From Roseobacter fucihabitans (GTDB lineage: Bacteria > Pseudomonadota > Alphaproteobacteria > Rhodobacterales > Rhodobacteraceae), in NCBI RefSeq assembly GCF_014337925.2, contig NZ_CP143423.1, forward strand, positions 1,084,501-1,148,500: a stretch of 64,000 bases of DNA, given 5' to 3'. The translations under genes and the position numbers were made by a program. Below the pieces are notes generated by a model. That model made no database searches and had not been told where the DNA came from. It saw only the letters and a list, made by a program, of their open reading frames with translations. Positions 15,574-42,315 of the stretch are shown piece after piece (position 1 is the first letter of the stretch; every line of letters begins with the position of its first letter).

Positions 15574-15621
15574 GAGTCGTTTTTTTCTTGTTCGCGCGGG
15601 CCGAACAGAGATAACAATAAG

Positions 15622-15776
15622 ACACGGTGCCATATTCTGTGGCTGAAAAGGGAACCGGGTGTGAGCCCCGGACTGCCCCCGCAACTGTAAGCGGCGAGCG
15701 CAACGGTAAGACCACTGGCCATACGGCTGGGAAGGACCCGCGCGCTGCGACCCGCAAGTCAGGAGACCTGCCGTAC
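15622..15776 (+). promoter_or_regulatory. Cobalamin (AdoCbl) riboswitch 2
   Basis: This is a near-textbook B12 riboswitch. The blocks are ACGGTGCCAT near 15623, CTGAAAAGGGAA near 15642, GCCCCCGCAACTGTAAGCGG near 15675, CCACTGG near 15711, GGGAAGG near 15729 and the B12 box GTCAGGAGACCTGCC near 15758. It sits 65 bases before the CbiM-like gene. It should give that gene its own AdoCbl-dependent control, separate from the upstream operon. Confidence 0.96.
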
Positions 15777-15841
15777 CAAATCATAGCCCGCGATATCGCG
15801 GATCATTCGCTGCCGGAGGGGCAGCTCAGAAAGGAACACAC

Positions 15842-37807: not shown

Positions 37808-38041
37808 TCAGCCTGCGTATTGCTCTGCTGCGTCCAGCGCGATTGCGCGGATCATGGAACGTGACATTCCCAGATCATTCAATTCTCGCTCGCCCAGCTT
37901 GGACAGTTCCGCATAGGTTTCGCGGAATACTCTATTTCGTGCGTAACGCTCGGATGCGGCCTGCAACAGGTTGGCCGCCGTGATAAGCGTCCGTTCGATC
38001 ACGCTCTCGGAGCGCGTATTGATTTGTGTGTAATAGGCCAT
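37808..38041 (-). CDS. ccaF1: DUF1127 small protein heading the sRNA array (CcaF1-like)
   Basis: The 77-residue protein begins MAYYTQINTRSESVIERTL and ends with the DUF1127 motif ELSKLGERELNDLGMSRSMI. In Rhodobacter a DUF1127 protein (CcaF1) is encoded directly upstream of the CcsR sRNAs, is stress-induced and has been linked to RNA binding and sRNA maturation. The arrangement here is the same. The frame is open to 38149, but the ATG at 38041 with GAGG upstream is the likely start. Confidence 0.85.
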   Translation of the reverse strand: MAYYTQINTRSESVIERTLITAANLLQAASERYARNRVFRETYAELSKLGERELNDLGMSRSMIRAIALDAAEQYAG

Positions 38042-38084
38042 GTGCCTGTCCTCGTTATTCCATACGTTCGTTTGTTGTGCTCCA

Positions 38085-38112
38085 TATTTAAGAGATTGCT
38101 GCACGTGCACAA
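38085..38112 (-). promoter_or_regulatory. Candidate promoter of the DUF1127-sRNA transcript
   Basis: On the minus strand, TTGTGC (38112-38107) and TAAATA (38090-38085) are spaced by 16 bases, about 45 bases before the ATG. A heat-shock/stress sigma factor is expected from the Rhodobacter counterpart, but the sequence alone does not decide this. Confidence 0.3.
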
Positions 38113-38265
38113 TACCCAGATTATCAATGCTGCTATGCAGCAATTGCATAGGCGACCTAGCGTAAATTTATGCGTAGTGCTATAGGGTTAAGCATAAAGA
38201 AGCCCTATATAATGTTAGCGGAAACAGGCGCTTAACAAACAAGCGCCCCTGAGGAGAATTTGAGC

Positions 38266-39339
38266 ATGTCGATAACCAAAGCCGAAATCGAGGCAGCGCT
38301 GGCCCGTGTCGTCCTGCCGGACGGAAAGAGCCTTATGGCGCATGATTTGATTCGGGCCTTGAACATCGATGGGGGATCCGTGCGCTTCGTGATCGAAGCG
38401 CCCAGCCCGGAAGTGGCGCGCCAGATGGCCCCCTTGCGCGATGCCGCAGAGAAGGTCGTGGCCGACCTGCCGGGTGTGGACACTGTGACCGTGGCCTTGA
38501 CCGCACATGGCCCGGCGGAAAAGAAACCCGCCCCCCCCAGCCTCAAGATAGGCGGCCATCCCAAACCGCAGGAGGGGCCGACCAAGCCCAGCGGGGTGAA
38601 ACGCATTCTGGCCATTGGCTCGGGCAAGGGCGGTGTGGGTAAATCCACTGTCTCCTCCAATCTCACGGTGGCCCTGGCGCGGGCAGGGCGCAAGGTGGGG
38701 TTGCTGGACGCCGATATATATGGTCCCAGCCAGCCGCGGATGATGGGGGTGAACAAACGGCCCGCTTCGCCTGACGGCAAGACGATCATCCCGCTGCACG
38801 CGCATGGTGTGACGCTGATGTCGATTGGGTTCATGCTGGAAGAGGGCAAGGCCGTGGTCTGGCGTGGTCCGATGTTGATGGGTGCGCTGCAACAGATGTT
38901 GGGGCAGGTTGAGTGGGGCGAGTTGGACGTGTTGCTGGTCGATTTGCCGCCCGGCACCGGGGATGTGCAGCTGACATTATGTACCAAGTCCGAATTGACC
39001 GGCGCGATTGTGGTTAGCACCCCGCAGGATGTAGCCCTGATTGATGCGCGCAAGGCGCTCGATATGTTCGATACCTTGAAGACACCCGTTTTGGGGCTGA
39101 TTGAAAATATGTCGATGTTTGTTTGCCCCGATTGCGGATCCGAGCATCAGATCTTCGGGCAGGGTGGCGTTGCGGCGGAGGCTGAGAGGCTCGGCGTGCC
39201 GCTGTTGGGCACATTGCCTATTGATCTGGACACGCGGCTGGCGGGGGATGGCGGCACACCAATTGCGGTGGGCGACAGCCCGATGGCGCAAGCCTATGGC
39301 CGCATCGCCGAAGGGTTAATCCGGGGTGGTATGGCCTAG
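38266..39339 (+). CDS. mrp: Mrp/ApbC-family P-loop ATPase (Fe-S cluster carrier)
   Basis: The 357-residue protein has an N-terminal MIP18-like domain, a proline-rich linker near residues 85-100, and a deviant Walker A GSGKGGVGKSTVSSN. DADIYGPSQPRMMG and the C-terminal CPDCGSEH cysteine pair, which binds a bridging Fe-S cluster in this family, follow. GAGGAG lies nine bases before the ATG at 38266; a TTG six bases upstream is less likely. It probably carries Fe-S clusters to target proteins. Confidence 0.93.
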   Translation: MSITKAEIEAALARVVLPDGKSLMAHDLIRALNIDGGSVRFVIEAPSPEVARQMAPLRDAAEKVVADLPGVDTVTVALTAHGPAEKKPAPPSLKIGGHPKPQEGPTKPSGVKRILAIGSGKGGVGKSTVSSNLTVALARAGRKVGLLDADIYGPSQPRMMGVNKRPASPDGKTIIPLHAHGVTLMSIGFMLEEGKAVVWRGPMLMGALQQMLGQVEWGELDVLLVDLPPGTGDVQLTLCTKSELTGAIVVSTPQDVALIDARKALDMFDTLKTPVLGLIENMSMFVCPDCGSEHQIFGQGGVAAEAERLGVPLLGTLPIDLDTRLAGDGGTPIAVGDSPMAQAYGRIAEGLIRGGMA

Positions 39340-40085
39340 GTTAAAGGGCGGTGCTGCACCAGATGGCCGTAAAGGGTGCTGAGAACGCTGATGGACACGA
39401 TGATCTGGAAGTAGCTCAGCACCAGCTGCCCGACAACCGCAGCGGCGAGGGACGCCGCCGCCAGAGAGGTGATCACACCTGCCAACATGGTGTTCATGAC
39501 CGCAAGGATCACGGCAACCCGAAGAATTGCACCTGACAGCGGTTTTGTCGCCTGCAGGCTGTCGACGATCGCGAGCCGTGTGCCTAAAGCGGCGGCGGGC
39601 AGCGTCAGACTGATCCGCATGGCGATCCACGAAAACAATATACCGATCCCAACGCCCACCACGATTACGAGAGTGGCGGAGCCGCCGCTCAAGATGAGCG
39701 TGGTGCCAAAAATCAATAGAATTGCCGGAATGGCAGCAATTAAGAGAACCAGAAAGACCACAATCAGCTTACCGAGATACTGCGCCAAAACGCCAACTCC
39801 GGGTCGCATGATCTGATCCCGCGCGTCACCCTCCAGCAATGCATACCTATGCCAGTATACGGCAATGAGCAGCACACCCACTCCCCCGATGATCGCCTGC
39901 ACTATCGCGGGGCCGGGATCGAGCGCGACGCGCTGTTCTGCGGCGGTAATCATGGGCTGCGCGTCAAAGAGCAGGCCCGCACCAATAAGAAAAGCCAATC
40001 CCGGCGACGTCACTTTCAAGGTTTTCAAGGGGTCTGCGAACATCAATCTGAAAGAACGTTGCAGGATCGCGATATCAGTCTTCAT
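39336..40085 (-). CDS. Multi-spanning membrane protein of unknown function
   Basis: The 249-residue protein has about six hydrophobic segments after a short cytosolic N-terminus (MKTDIAILQRSFRLMFADP). I do not recognise a named family; it broadly resembles the YIP1-like or glycerophosphoryl diester membrane domain proteins. It converges on mrp with a four-base overlap of the 3' ends and is divergent from the dcw cluster. Confidence 0.7.
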   Translation of the reverse strand: MKTDIAILQRSFRLMFADPLKTLKVTSPGLAFLIGAGLLFDAQPMITAAEQRVALDPGPAIVQAIIGGVGVLLIAVYWHRYALLEGDARDQIMRPGVGVLAQYLGKLIVVFLVLLIAAIPAILLIFGTTLILSGGSATLVIVVGVGIGILFSWIAMRISLTLPAAALGTRLAIVDSLQATKPLSGAILRVAVILAVMNTMLAGVITSLAAASLAAAVVGQLVLSYFQIIVSISVLSTLYGHLVQHRPLT

Positions 40086-40518
40086 GGAAAATTCCCCGAA
40101 TAAAATCTCAAAAGCGGGGTAGTGCAGCCATAGGAGACCCGCAAGCGGCCATTTCGACTATGGTTTATGGCACATGGGAAGTTATGGGACGGATGCGGGG
40201 AGTGTTGGGGCTGTCGGGGTAATTGGTCAATTTTCCTGCTTCGAATCAAAAGAAGCTGGAATTTTGGCTTTTGACCGAAGAGATTTTATGACTTGCGACG
40301 AGAACGTTTATAGAACATGATGATAGTTATCTACATTCTAGAAAAAAGTGGGATTTTGTGGGAAATTTTTGAATATTTGCAATTTTCCCATATGTGGTGT
40401 GATAGTTTCCTTCAGCCGCAATTTATAGAGAGAGGTCTTGCAAAATATACAGGATTTTTACCTAATTGTTAAAAAAATCCCTTATAAGTAAGGTTTTGGT
40501 AACTAAAAACACCTTGCC
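40086..40518. other. AT-rich regulatory region upstream of the dcw cluster
   Basis: No gene is present. The stretch is much more AT-rich than the rest of the window. It has a pair of TGGGA units 10 bases apart at 40349 and 40359, and several possible promoters near 40430-40510. Confidence 0.5.
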
Positions 40519-40543
40519 ACCCATAATTTCCCATTGTATCCCT
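40519..40543 (+). promoter_or_regulatory. Putative MraZ-box operator (three units, 10-bp period)
   Basis: CCCA at 40520, CCCA at 40530 and CCCT at 40540 read on the other strand as AGGGA, TGGGA and TGGGT at exact 10-base spacing. Known MraZ operators are TGGGN units with 5-bp spacers. The site lies just upstream of the leader RNA of mraZ, as expected for autoregulation. Confidence 0.55.
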
Positions 40544-40544
40544 G

Positions 40545-40765
40545 TTGCATCAGATGAGAACGAGACCGGGGCGCTAAACGACCCCATCTAAATAAAAACT
40601 CTAGCAGGTTCATACAGGCCCTCGCTTTCAACTGACCAAGAGATCCGGCGCGCGAGCGAGCAGACATCCCCCCAGATGGCGCGCGTGACTGGACTTCCCC
40701 GCGAAGCGGGACGAGGGCGGCGAGTTGATCAGTGGCAGCAGATCAACTCGCCGTTTCCATTTCAA
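40545..40765 (+). ncRNA. upsM: UpsM-like sRNA from the mraZ leader
   Basis: A GC-rich, structured stretch of about 220 bases fills the space between the AT-rich promoter region and mraZ. It ends in a strong hairpin, a perfect 12-bp stem GGCGAGTTGATC/GATCAACTCGCC at 40719-40730 and 40741-40752, followed by a weak T-rich segment. In Rhodobacter the sRNA UpsM arises at this same position by premature termination of the dcw transcript. Position, size and terminal hairpin match; the 5' end is only estimated. Confidence 0.6.
40719..40762 (+). terminator. Terminator-like hairpin in the mraZ leader
   Basis: A perfect 12-bp stem with a 10-base loop is followed by GTTTCCATTT. It should stop a share of transcripts before mraZ, yielding the leader sRNA and limiting dcw expression. 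Confidence 0.65.
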
Positions 40766-40818
40766 AATAGGGGGATACGCGTCGAACTTTAAGTGACGCA
40801 TGAAGTTGGGATAAGGCA

Positions 40819-41322
40819 GTGAGCCGCAGGTTCAGAGGCGAAAGCCATCACAAGGTCGATGCCAAGGGGCGGGTTTCTATCCCTGCCTCTTTTCGCCGTG
40901 TGATCGAGGCCTCTGACCCGAACTGGACCTCTGGCGAAAACCCGGAACTGGTTATCGTTTACGGCGATCACCGGCGCAATTTTCTGGAATGCTACACGAT
41001 GCAAGCCATTGAAGAGGTGGATGAGCAGATCGACACCTTGCCGCGTGGCTCACGGGAGCGCAAACTGCTGCAAACCCTGTTTCAGGGGCAATCCTTCGCC
41101 ACCTCCATCGACGAAACAGGCCGTCTGGTGCTGCCCGCCAAGCTGCGCCAGAAAATCGGGCTGGCCAATGAAGCCTTTTTCCTCGCGGCAGGGGACACGT
41201 TCCAGATTTGGAACCCTGACACCTATGTAACGGATGAGGTCGCCAAGACCGAAGCCTATCTGGACGACATGCCAGATGATTTTGACCCGCTGGTCTTGTT
41301 GCCTCCCAAGACGAGGGAGTAA
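40819..41322 (+). CDS. mraZ: MraZ, dcw cluster transcription regulator
   Basis: The 167-residue protein starts with GTG and contains two MraZ/AbrB-like repeats: FRGESHHKVDAKGRVSIPASFR near the N-terminus and FATSIDETGRLVLPAKLRQKIG in the middle. It is a ring-forming DNA-binding protein that usually represses its own operon. The likely operator is the 10-bp-period repeat around 40519-40543. It is the first protein gene of the division cluster. Confidence 0.94.
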   Translation: MSRRFRGESHHKVDAKGRVSIPASFRRVIEASDPNWTSGENPELVIVYGDHRRNFLECYTMQAIEEVDEQIDTLPRGSRERKLLQTLFQGQSFATSIDETGRLVLPAKLRQKIGLANEAFFLAAGDTFQIWNPDTYVTDEVAKTEAYLDDMPDDFDPLVLLPPKTRE

Positions 41323-41325
41323 GCC

Positions 41326-42315
41326 ATGGCTGCTGCGGCCCCGTCTGACACGCCCCCCCATATTCCCGTCCTTTTGCCGGCTATTCTGGACGCGGTGGCC
41401 CCGGTGCAAGGCGTGTGGCTGGATGGCACGTTTGGCGCGGGCGGTTATACACGCGGGCTGCTGGAGGCGGGCGCCGAGAGGGTCATTGCCGTGGATCGCG
41501 ACCCGCTGGCCTTTGATCTGGCGGCCGAATGGTCAGGTGGATATGGCGCACGTCTGGTTCAGCAACAGGGTGTTTTTTCCAAGATGGACACTTATGGCAC
41601 CGACCTGGATGGGGTGGTGCTCGATCTTGGGGTCTCCTCCATGCAACTTGATCTGGCCGAGCGCGGGTTTTCCTTCATGCGGGATGGGCCGCTGGACATG
41701 CGCATGAGCCAATCGGGGACTTCTGCGGCGGATATCGTCAACGGCGCCGAAGAAGAAACCCTCGCCAATATCCTGTTCCTTTATGGGGAAGAGCGCGCCA
41801 GCCGCCGTATCGCCAAATCGATCCTGCGCGAACGGGCGCTTGAGCGGATCACGACCACCTTGCGCCTTGCCGGTATCATTGAGGGTTGTTTGCCGCGCAG
41901 CAAACCGGGGCAATCCCACCCTGCCACGCGCAGTTTTCAGGCGCTGCGGATCGCGGTGAACAACGAATATGGTGAGCTTTTTGAAGGACTTATGGCGGCG
42001 GAGCGGGCGTTGAAGCCGGGCGGCCAACTGGCCGTGGTGACGTTCCATTCGGTCGAGGACCGCATGGTCAAACGCTTCCTGACGGCACGGGCTGGGACGG
42101 GCGGTAATGCAAACCGCTACGCCCCTGAGATCGCGCGTGCTGCCCCCGGTTTCACGGTGAAATCACGCAAGGCCATTGCCGCCACAGCGGATGAAATCGC
42201 CGCTAACCCCCGTGCGCGCTCTGCCAGGTTGCGCCTCGCCACGCGCACGGATGCCCCTTTTGAGGCCGTGGATGCCAAGGCCATCGGCATGCCCCTGCTG
42301 AAGGAGACGCTCTAG
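41326..42315 (+). CDS. rsmH: 16S rRNA m4C1402 methyltransferase RsmH
   Basis: The 329-residue protein has [13 protein letters not shown], the SAM motif [33 protein letters not shown] and AIRIAVNNE-type RsmH motifs, with [13 protein letters not shown] near the C-terminus. It methylates N4 of C1402 in the ribosomal P site. It starts three bases after mraZ ends. Confidence 0.95.

Follow-up and report, generated by a model that had tools for sequence, protein, structure and literature searches.

A predicted UpsM-type leader RNA ahead of mraZ in Roseobacter, with a putative StsR pairing site at the foot of its terminator

INTRODUCTION

The described RNA closest to the locus analyzed here is UpsM (RSs0682) of Rhodobacter sphaeroides. 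In the published excerpts that serve as our background, the leader before mraZ in this bacterium measures 268 nt and UpsM 206 nt, which places the UpsM 3' end 62 nt before mraZ; termination is partial, with about one read-through in 100, and UpsM is cut to yield a 130-nt 3' fragment (Weber et al. 2016, PMC5089854). StsR (RSs0827), an sRNA of 72 nt, is reported to target UpsM by opening a double-stranded region and so permitting cleavage by RNase E, and has other targets, such as the rpoE mRNA. ChIP signals of NtrX and CenR are likewise reported before mraZ in R. sphaeroides. From the species that they compared, Weber et al. claimed that such leaders occur throughout the family (PMC5089854).

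Two further systems invite comparison. MraZ is described as binding repeats with a 10-bp period at dcw promoters; the Burkholderia cenocepacia promoter carries four 7-nt repeats with 3-nt spacers, and MraZ boxes are also reported for Escherichia coli and Mollicutes. SreA and SreB of Listeria, which are named in PMC5089854, are riboswitch-derived sRNAs that share with UpsM-type RNAs the property of an early-ended leader able to act in trans; no ligand is known for the leader described below.

We analyzed a stretch of 64,000 nt (the window) from Roseobacter fucihabitans, part of a 4.52-Mb contig in a genome of 4.85 Mb. An initial annotation had proposed a terminated leader ahead of mraZ and the dcw cluster and had suggested that it is an UpsM homologue. 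In the literature that we searched, we found no report of UpsM or of mraZ-linked sRNAs in roseobacters.

RESULTS

Position and terminator of the leader

The first dcw gene, mraZ, is a plus-strand ORF with a GTG start (positions 40819 to 41322). It is followed on the same strand by mraW/rsmH (41326-42315) and more dcw genes, all named from translations and gene order. Positioned 5' of mraZ and in the same orientation is the predicted UpsM homologue, with a length of about 208 nt (40550 to 40757, plus strand). It was delimited with a covariance model (R1, see below), and its start near 40550 was placed by alignment with the R. sphaeroides start, using the published distance of 268 nt before mraZ. 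The whole stretch from 40545 to 40765 folds with a z score of -3.6.

At its 3' end the leader carries a hairpin (40718 to 40753, plus strand) in which 40718-40730 pair with 40741-40753, giving 13 Watson-Crick pairs around a 10-nt loop (AGTGGCAGCA), with three additional G.U pairs to the U-tract. The predicted fold has an energy of -28 kcal/mol (z = -6.8), and none of 1,000 mononucleotide shuffles contained an equally strong uninterrupted hairpin. The terminated-type leader that had been proposed from the sequence was thus borne out, with the hairpin 61-65 nt before mraZ; the stem is indeed perfect, but it has one pair more than the 12 bp originally given. The description of the leader as GC rich holds for the 3' part only, since the 5' 92 nt have a G+C content of 49%. 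The U-tract that follows (TTTCC, 40754 to 40758, plus strand) is short and poor, and a consensus terminator scan, which accepts loops of at most 8 nt, did not flag the hairpin. A strong hairpin about 60 nt before mraZ with a weak U-tract characterizes this locus. Among relatives, a hairpin of at least 10 bp follows the conserved CATACAGG in 158 of 171 leaders, compared with 5 of 171 shuffled segments. The terminator loop CAGUGGCAGC is near-invariant across leaders.

Homology to UpsM and distribution in the family

In 30 genomes, the sequence upstream of mraZ can be aligned along the entire leader. Alignments A1 and A2 comprised 28 of the 30 loci (L027, with a diverged leader, and L028, which has no recognizable core, were left out), and alignment A3 comprised 25 of the 28 (without L022, L025, and L030) plus the R. 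sphaeroides leader. The core, including GTTTCATACAGGC, GAGATCCGGCGCGCGAGCGAGCAGACATCCCCCCAGGTGG, and the terminator with loop CAGTGGCAGC, is near-invariant among relatives. R1 was built for this core on the 28 relatives of A1.

The genome designated G093 was identified as R. sphaeroides 2.4.1; its mraZ sits at the published NtrX ChIP interval, 694,110-695,200. R1 matched its UpsM locus with an E value of 3e-26 (G093:C4:694692-694841); the 3' boundary of this match is 62 nt from mraZ. This agrees with the published UpsM 3' end, so that homology was tested against the real UpsM locus. The two leaders share their place before mraZ, length, order and spacing of parts, a near-identical core, the distance of the terminator from mraZ (61-65 nt), and the place of the predicted RNase E site. 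They differ in that R. sphaeroides UpsM has GAACGGGACAGUGAA at its 5' end and lacks GGGACGAGGG, while the reverse is true of the window leader. The suggestion of an UpsM homologue was therefore upheld: the leader is a member of the published UpsM family, which was already a published feature of the Rhodobacteraceae. We consider it very probable that it is a genuine UpsM homologue in the sense of a terminated leader, with termination in this organism predicted from the hairpin. By analogy with R. sphaeroides, partial termination, abundance, Hfq binding, stress-dependent RNase E cleavage, and control by StsR would be expected here as well.

Of 295 family genomes, nearly all of different genera, 267 contained a match to R1, as did 241 of the 260 good assemblies. 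A class-wide sample gave matches in 4 of 289 genomes, all four in the window's own family. The exact core pattern occurs in at least 117 stretches of named contigs; among the matches listed, titles were those of Rhodobacteraceae/Rhodobacterales, except for "Pseudomonadota bacterium KLAP22" and "Maritalea mobilis DP3N28-3." The figure of 267 of 295 is probably an underestimate, since most R1-negative genomes that were inspected retain one or more of the elements, namely, MraZ-type repeats, CATACAGG, and a hairpin ahead of mraZ. One locus, L199, has neither CATACAGG nor a strong hairpin. Two other R1-negative loci, L197 (G132) and L203 (G143), show a shortened arrangement in which MraZ-box-like repeats and CATACAGG are kept and the strong hairpin ahead of mraZ is a different one.

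Elsewhere in the window, the minus strand between 37480 and 38149 holds an ORF (37808-38149) that we take to be of the DUF1127 type, followed by several hairpins with CCUCCUCCC-type loops; the arrangement resembles the ccaF1-CcsR1-4 locus. R. sphaeroides has the same motif array on its minus strand, some 2.3 kb ahead of UpsM, and the ccaF1-CcsR1-4-like arrangement is therefore syntenic.

Structure of the leader and the predicted RNase E site

A helix, P1, is predicted at the 5' end of the leader, with strands at 40550 to 40564 and 40621 to 40635 (all leader elements are on the plus strand). P1 encloses a small GGGG/CCCC hairpin (40568 to 40585) and the most deeply conserved stretch, UUCAUACAGGC (40609 to 40619); CATACAGG occurs in 171 of 184 unique upstream regions. 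UUCAUACAGGC is also retained in several leaders missed by R1, and no partner was found for it (40609-40619). Two hairpins follow, R2 (40640 to 40697), near-invariant in sequence with a C-rich loop, AUCCCCCCAG, and R3 (40698 to 40710; CCCGC/GCGGG). The R2 loop AUCCCCCC is near-invariant across leaders.

Pairing in P1 was counted in the 137 unique leaders in which the repeats, TTCATACAGG, and GATCC could all be recognized. The mean number of predicted pairs joining the 5' end to the segment that follows CATACAGG is 11.3, compared with 4.3 when that segment is shuffled, and 118 of the 137 leaders have at least 7 pairs. P1 and the terminator covary. For P1 and the small hairpin, 100 leaders in an alignment fitted to the structure gave 141 doubly changed cells, compared with 19 when columns were shuffled and no more than 24 in slid controls; an unfitted MAFFT alignment of 26 leaders gave a weaker signal in the same direction, with 5 doubly changed cells versus 0.9. 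R2, R3, and the terminator together had 36 such cells versus 7.7 in shuffles.

The near-invariance of the unpaired stretches is what one would also expect of a cis-acting riboswitch or attenuator, in which R2/R3 binds a ligand or protein and selects terminator or antiterminator, with the released RNA a by-product; Weber et al. proposed a riboswitch from the refolding of R2-R4 (PMC5089854). Yet the terminator pairs that change covary with each other, no Rfam family fits, and the published R. sphaeroides data on overexpression, Hfq, and StsR, as far as the excerpts report them, favor an sRNA. We therefore regard the cis-acting reading as unlikely and prefer that of an sRNA released from the leader. 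Against Rfam, the leader gave no match at the gathering score and only subthreshold matches at E values up to 10. Two cobalamin riboswitches lie elsewhere on the plus strand of the window, at 2179-2389 and 15608-15789.

A conserved leader peptide was considered and rejected: the ATG at 40554 opens 7 codons, and relatives, read by eye, are frameshifted or have no stop there. The sORF described by Weber et al. is restricted to R. sphaeroides according to its authors (PMC5089854).

Counting off the published fragment lengths, we placed the R. sphaeroides cut between GGCACCCGC and UUUCAUCC (GC/UUU), inside the 3' strand of P1. The 3' strand in the window is homologous to this 76/130-nt division and holds the equivalent predicted cut at 40625/40626 (GC/UUU), where the neighboring nucleotides are predicted to be paired. 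RNase E prefers RN/WUU, and the predicted cut fits. The site is conserved, and cleavage there would leave a 3' fragment of about 132 nt from the window leader. P1 is a natural candidate for a helix that hides the RNase E site. The genome encodes Hfq, RNase E, two RpoH-type sigma factors, and MraZ.

MraZ-box-like repeats at the predicted promoter

Immediately before the leader we found a -35-like TTGCCA (40514 to 40519, plus strand), which aligns with a TTG block in relatives, and, 17 nt after it, a -10-like TATCCC (40537 to 40542, plus strand), which also aligns in relatives; the two form the predicted dcw/UpsM promoter. A sigma-70 scan of 39500-41800 gave no plus-strand match, neither between the terminator and mraZ nor at this presumed promoter. 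A triple repeat occupies 40520 to 40543, and the -10-like element overlaps its third unit. The plus strand reads CCCA-N6-CCCA-N6-CCC, corresponding to TGGG-type repeats with a 10-bp period on the minus strand; the E. coli MraZ motif is reportedly TGGGN.

This periodicity recurs among relatives. Pairs of CCCA are spaced by 10 nt in 62 of 164 leaders (0.15 expected from shuffles) and by 20 nt in 32, while the other spacings from 5 to 25 occur in 0-4 of the 164 (shuffles, <1). A triple-repeat score of at least 10 of 11 was reached by 92 of 171 leaders and by 1 of 184 shuffles. Short repeats with a 10-bp period at the predicted dcw promoter are the feature that the window shares with the MraZ boxes of E. 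coli, Burkholderia, and Mollicutes. The placement differs: the window repeats lie between the -35-like element and the start, whereas those of B. cenocepacia and E. coli lie downstream of the -10 element, and they are about 270-300 nt before mraZ, unlike the boxes of E. coli, Burkholderia, and Mollicutes. Since the MraZ-box-like repeats overlie the leader promoter, MraZ can probably repress its own operon, with binding suggested by the repeat pattern. In the excerpts from the main text of the UpsM paper, there is no mention of repression, autoregulation, or MraZ binding (PMC5089854).

The position of this promoter also bears on a simpler explanation of the hairpin, namely, a plain terminator that insulates dcw from upstream transcription, with mraZ transcribed from a nearby promoter of its own. 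Such a hairpin would presumably stop any transcript arriving from upstream, but the nearest upstream ORF whose product is plausible (39336-40085) is encoded opposite to mraZ, and conservation spans the whole leader. Moreover, the repeats place the promoter about 300 nt before mraZ, and R. sphaeroides reporters, in the published excerpts, revealed no promoter closer to mraZ (PMC5089854). We consider mere insulation highly improbable and retain the reading of a leader that is transcribed from its own distant promoter.

An StsR-like partner RNA and its predicted pairing site

The place of StsR in R. sphaeroides was guessed from the RSs numbering, and two 20-kb stretches were scanned for terminators. 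One candidate emerged, an RNA of about 72-90 nt that ends near 858137, contains TTCACTGTCCC and CTCGTTCC, and is complementary to the 5' end of UpsM; we infer that it is the published StsR. An StsR-like core, ACTGTCCCTCGTTCC, is present in 238 of 295 family genomes (reversed control, 0), including all 18 Roseobacter genomes, the window's own among them. There the gene is single copy and lies outside the window (G000:C1:960160, in a gene region of about 960130-960220); it shares with the presumed StsR (RSs0827) the 15-nt core and a terminator. The StsR-like RNA gave no Rfam match at the gathering score. Its core was present in 227 of the 267 genomes with an R1 match to the leader and in 11 of the 28 without one (Fisher P = 3e-7, a value that ignores relatedness and fragmented assemblies). 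Several genera carry the StsR-like gene about 15-40 kb away from the UpsM leader (L303/L164 in G023, L287/L166 in G080, and L288/L168 in G115).

Sequences of both RNAs were collected for 69 genomes, of which 63 were tested for pairing; six with leader ends that were not delimited were left out. Energies from duplexfold for StsR with UpsM gave long imperfect duplexes, and they were replaced by contiguous helices: the single-stranded part of each StsR was compared with the leader of the same genome, the best uninterrupted helix was taken, and 100 dinucleotide shuffles of each leader served as controls. The partner presumed to be StsR shows complementarity to the window leader at the linker GCGGGACGAGGG (40706 to 40717, plus strand), which ends at the foot of the terminator stem and forms 12 contiguous pairs with the genome's own StsR-like RNA; a helix as good arose in 1 of 100 shuffles (P = 0.01). 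A weak possible site of 7 bp, GAACGAG (40558 to 40564, plus strand), lies within P1 and is the counterpart of the strong R. sphaeroides 5' site.

In 47 of the 63 genomes, the best helix was located in the linker zone that precedes the terminator; in 12 it was at the 5' end, and in 4 it was elsewhere. The 47 linker-zone cases are not independent, as the leaders are related. R. sphaeroides is among the 5'-end genomes, with 11 Watson-Crick pairs, and the linker is absent from its leader. The best helix reached P ≤ 0.05 in 44 of 63 genomes, and the linker-zone helices of several genomes (G193, G060, G023, and G242) were no better than shuffles.

Complementarity between StsR and the linker might also be incidental, with both sequences conserved for other reasons, StsR for its other targets and the linker as part of R3 and of the terminator foot. 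The rpoE mRNA is one such target, the linker is partly paired within the UpsM fold, and related sequences inflate the count of pairing genomes. On the other side, altered linkers still pair (GGAACGAGGG in G028, GGAGCGAGGG in G261, GGGATGAGGGACGG in G219, and a shifted CGAGGGACA in G019), and the R. sphaeroides leader, from which the linker is missing, offers the 11-bp site at its 5' end. We regard incidental complementarity as a real possibility, although short of probable. Docking of StsR on the linker at the terminator foot, which the helices suggest, is less certain than the homology to UpsM. It would differ from the predicted docking of StsR on the UpsM 5' end in R. sphaeroides. With the linker occupied, P1 and the terminator are still predicted to fold, so StsR on the linker alone would not expose the predicted RNase E site.

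DISCUSSION

We propose a scheme for the locus in which promoter activity, MraZ binding, termination, cleavage, and the binding and effect of StsR in this organism are deduced from sequence comparison and from R. sphaeroides. A single promoter about 270 nt before mraZ would start the dcw transcript, under the probable repression by MraZ described above. In most cases transcription would stop at the 13-bp hairpin, yielding a stable sRNA of about 208 nt; the remaining transcripts would continue into mraZ and the division genes. The UpsM 5' end would fold back onto the segment after UUCAUACAGG to form P1 and hide the RNase E site. Pairing of an StsR-type sRNA with the leader would occur during stress or in stationary phase. 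Given that the best site is the linker that ends at the terminator foot, the probable targets of StsR are the 3' part of UpsM and the nascent leader. The action of StsR would lower both UpsM and the dcw transcripts.

Extended to the family, this leads us to speculate that an RNA-RNA switch couples stress to cell division in most Rhodobacteraceae and that its point of contact has shifted. StsR would dock on the linker, where it could affect the nascent dcw leader, its termination or read-through, and the cleavage of UpsM, under a promoter repressed by MraZ, whereas in R. sphaeroides it would dock on the 5' end. We offer this composite tentatively and would give it somewhat less than an even chance of being right as a whole. 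In the literature searched, we found no report of MraZ-type repeats on this promoter, of covariation in P1, or of the linker site, any of which may already be known.

In the literature surveyed, UpsM and StsR have been studied in one species, and the present data predict the pair across the family. The analysis also provides P1 as the candidate helix hiding the RNase E site, the best predicted pairing site in each of 63 genomes, and MraZ-box-like repeats at the leader promoter. How stress, an sRNA, and MraZ may together set the expression of division and cell wall genes thereby becomes testable in Roseobacter.
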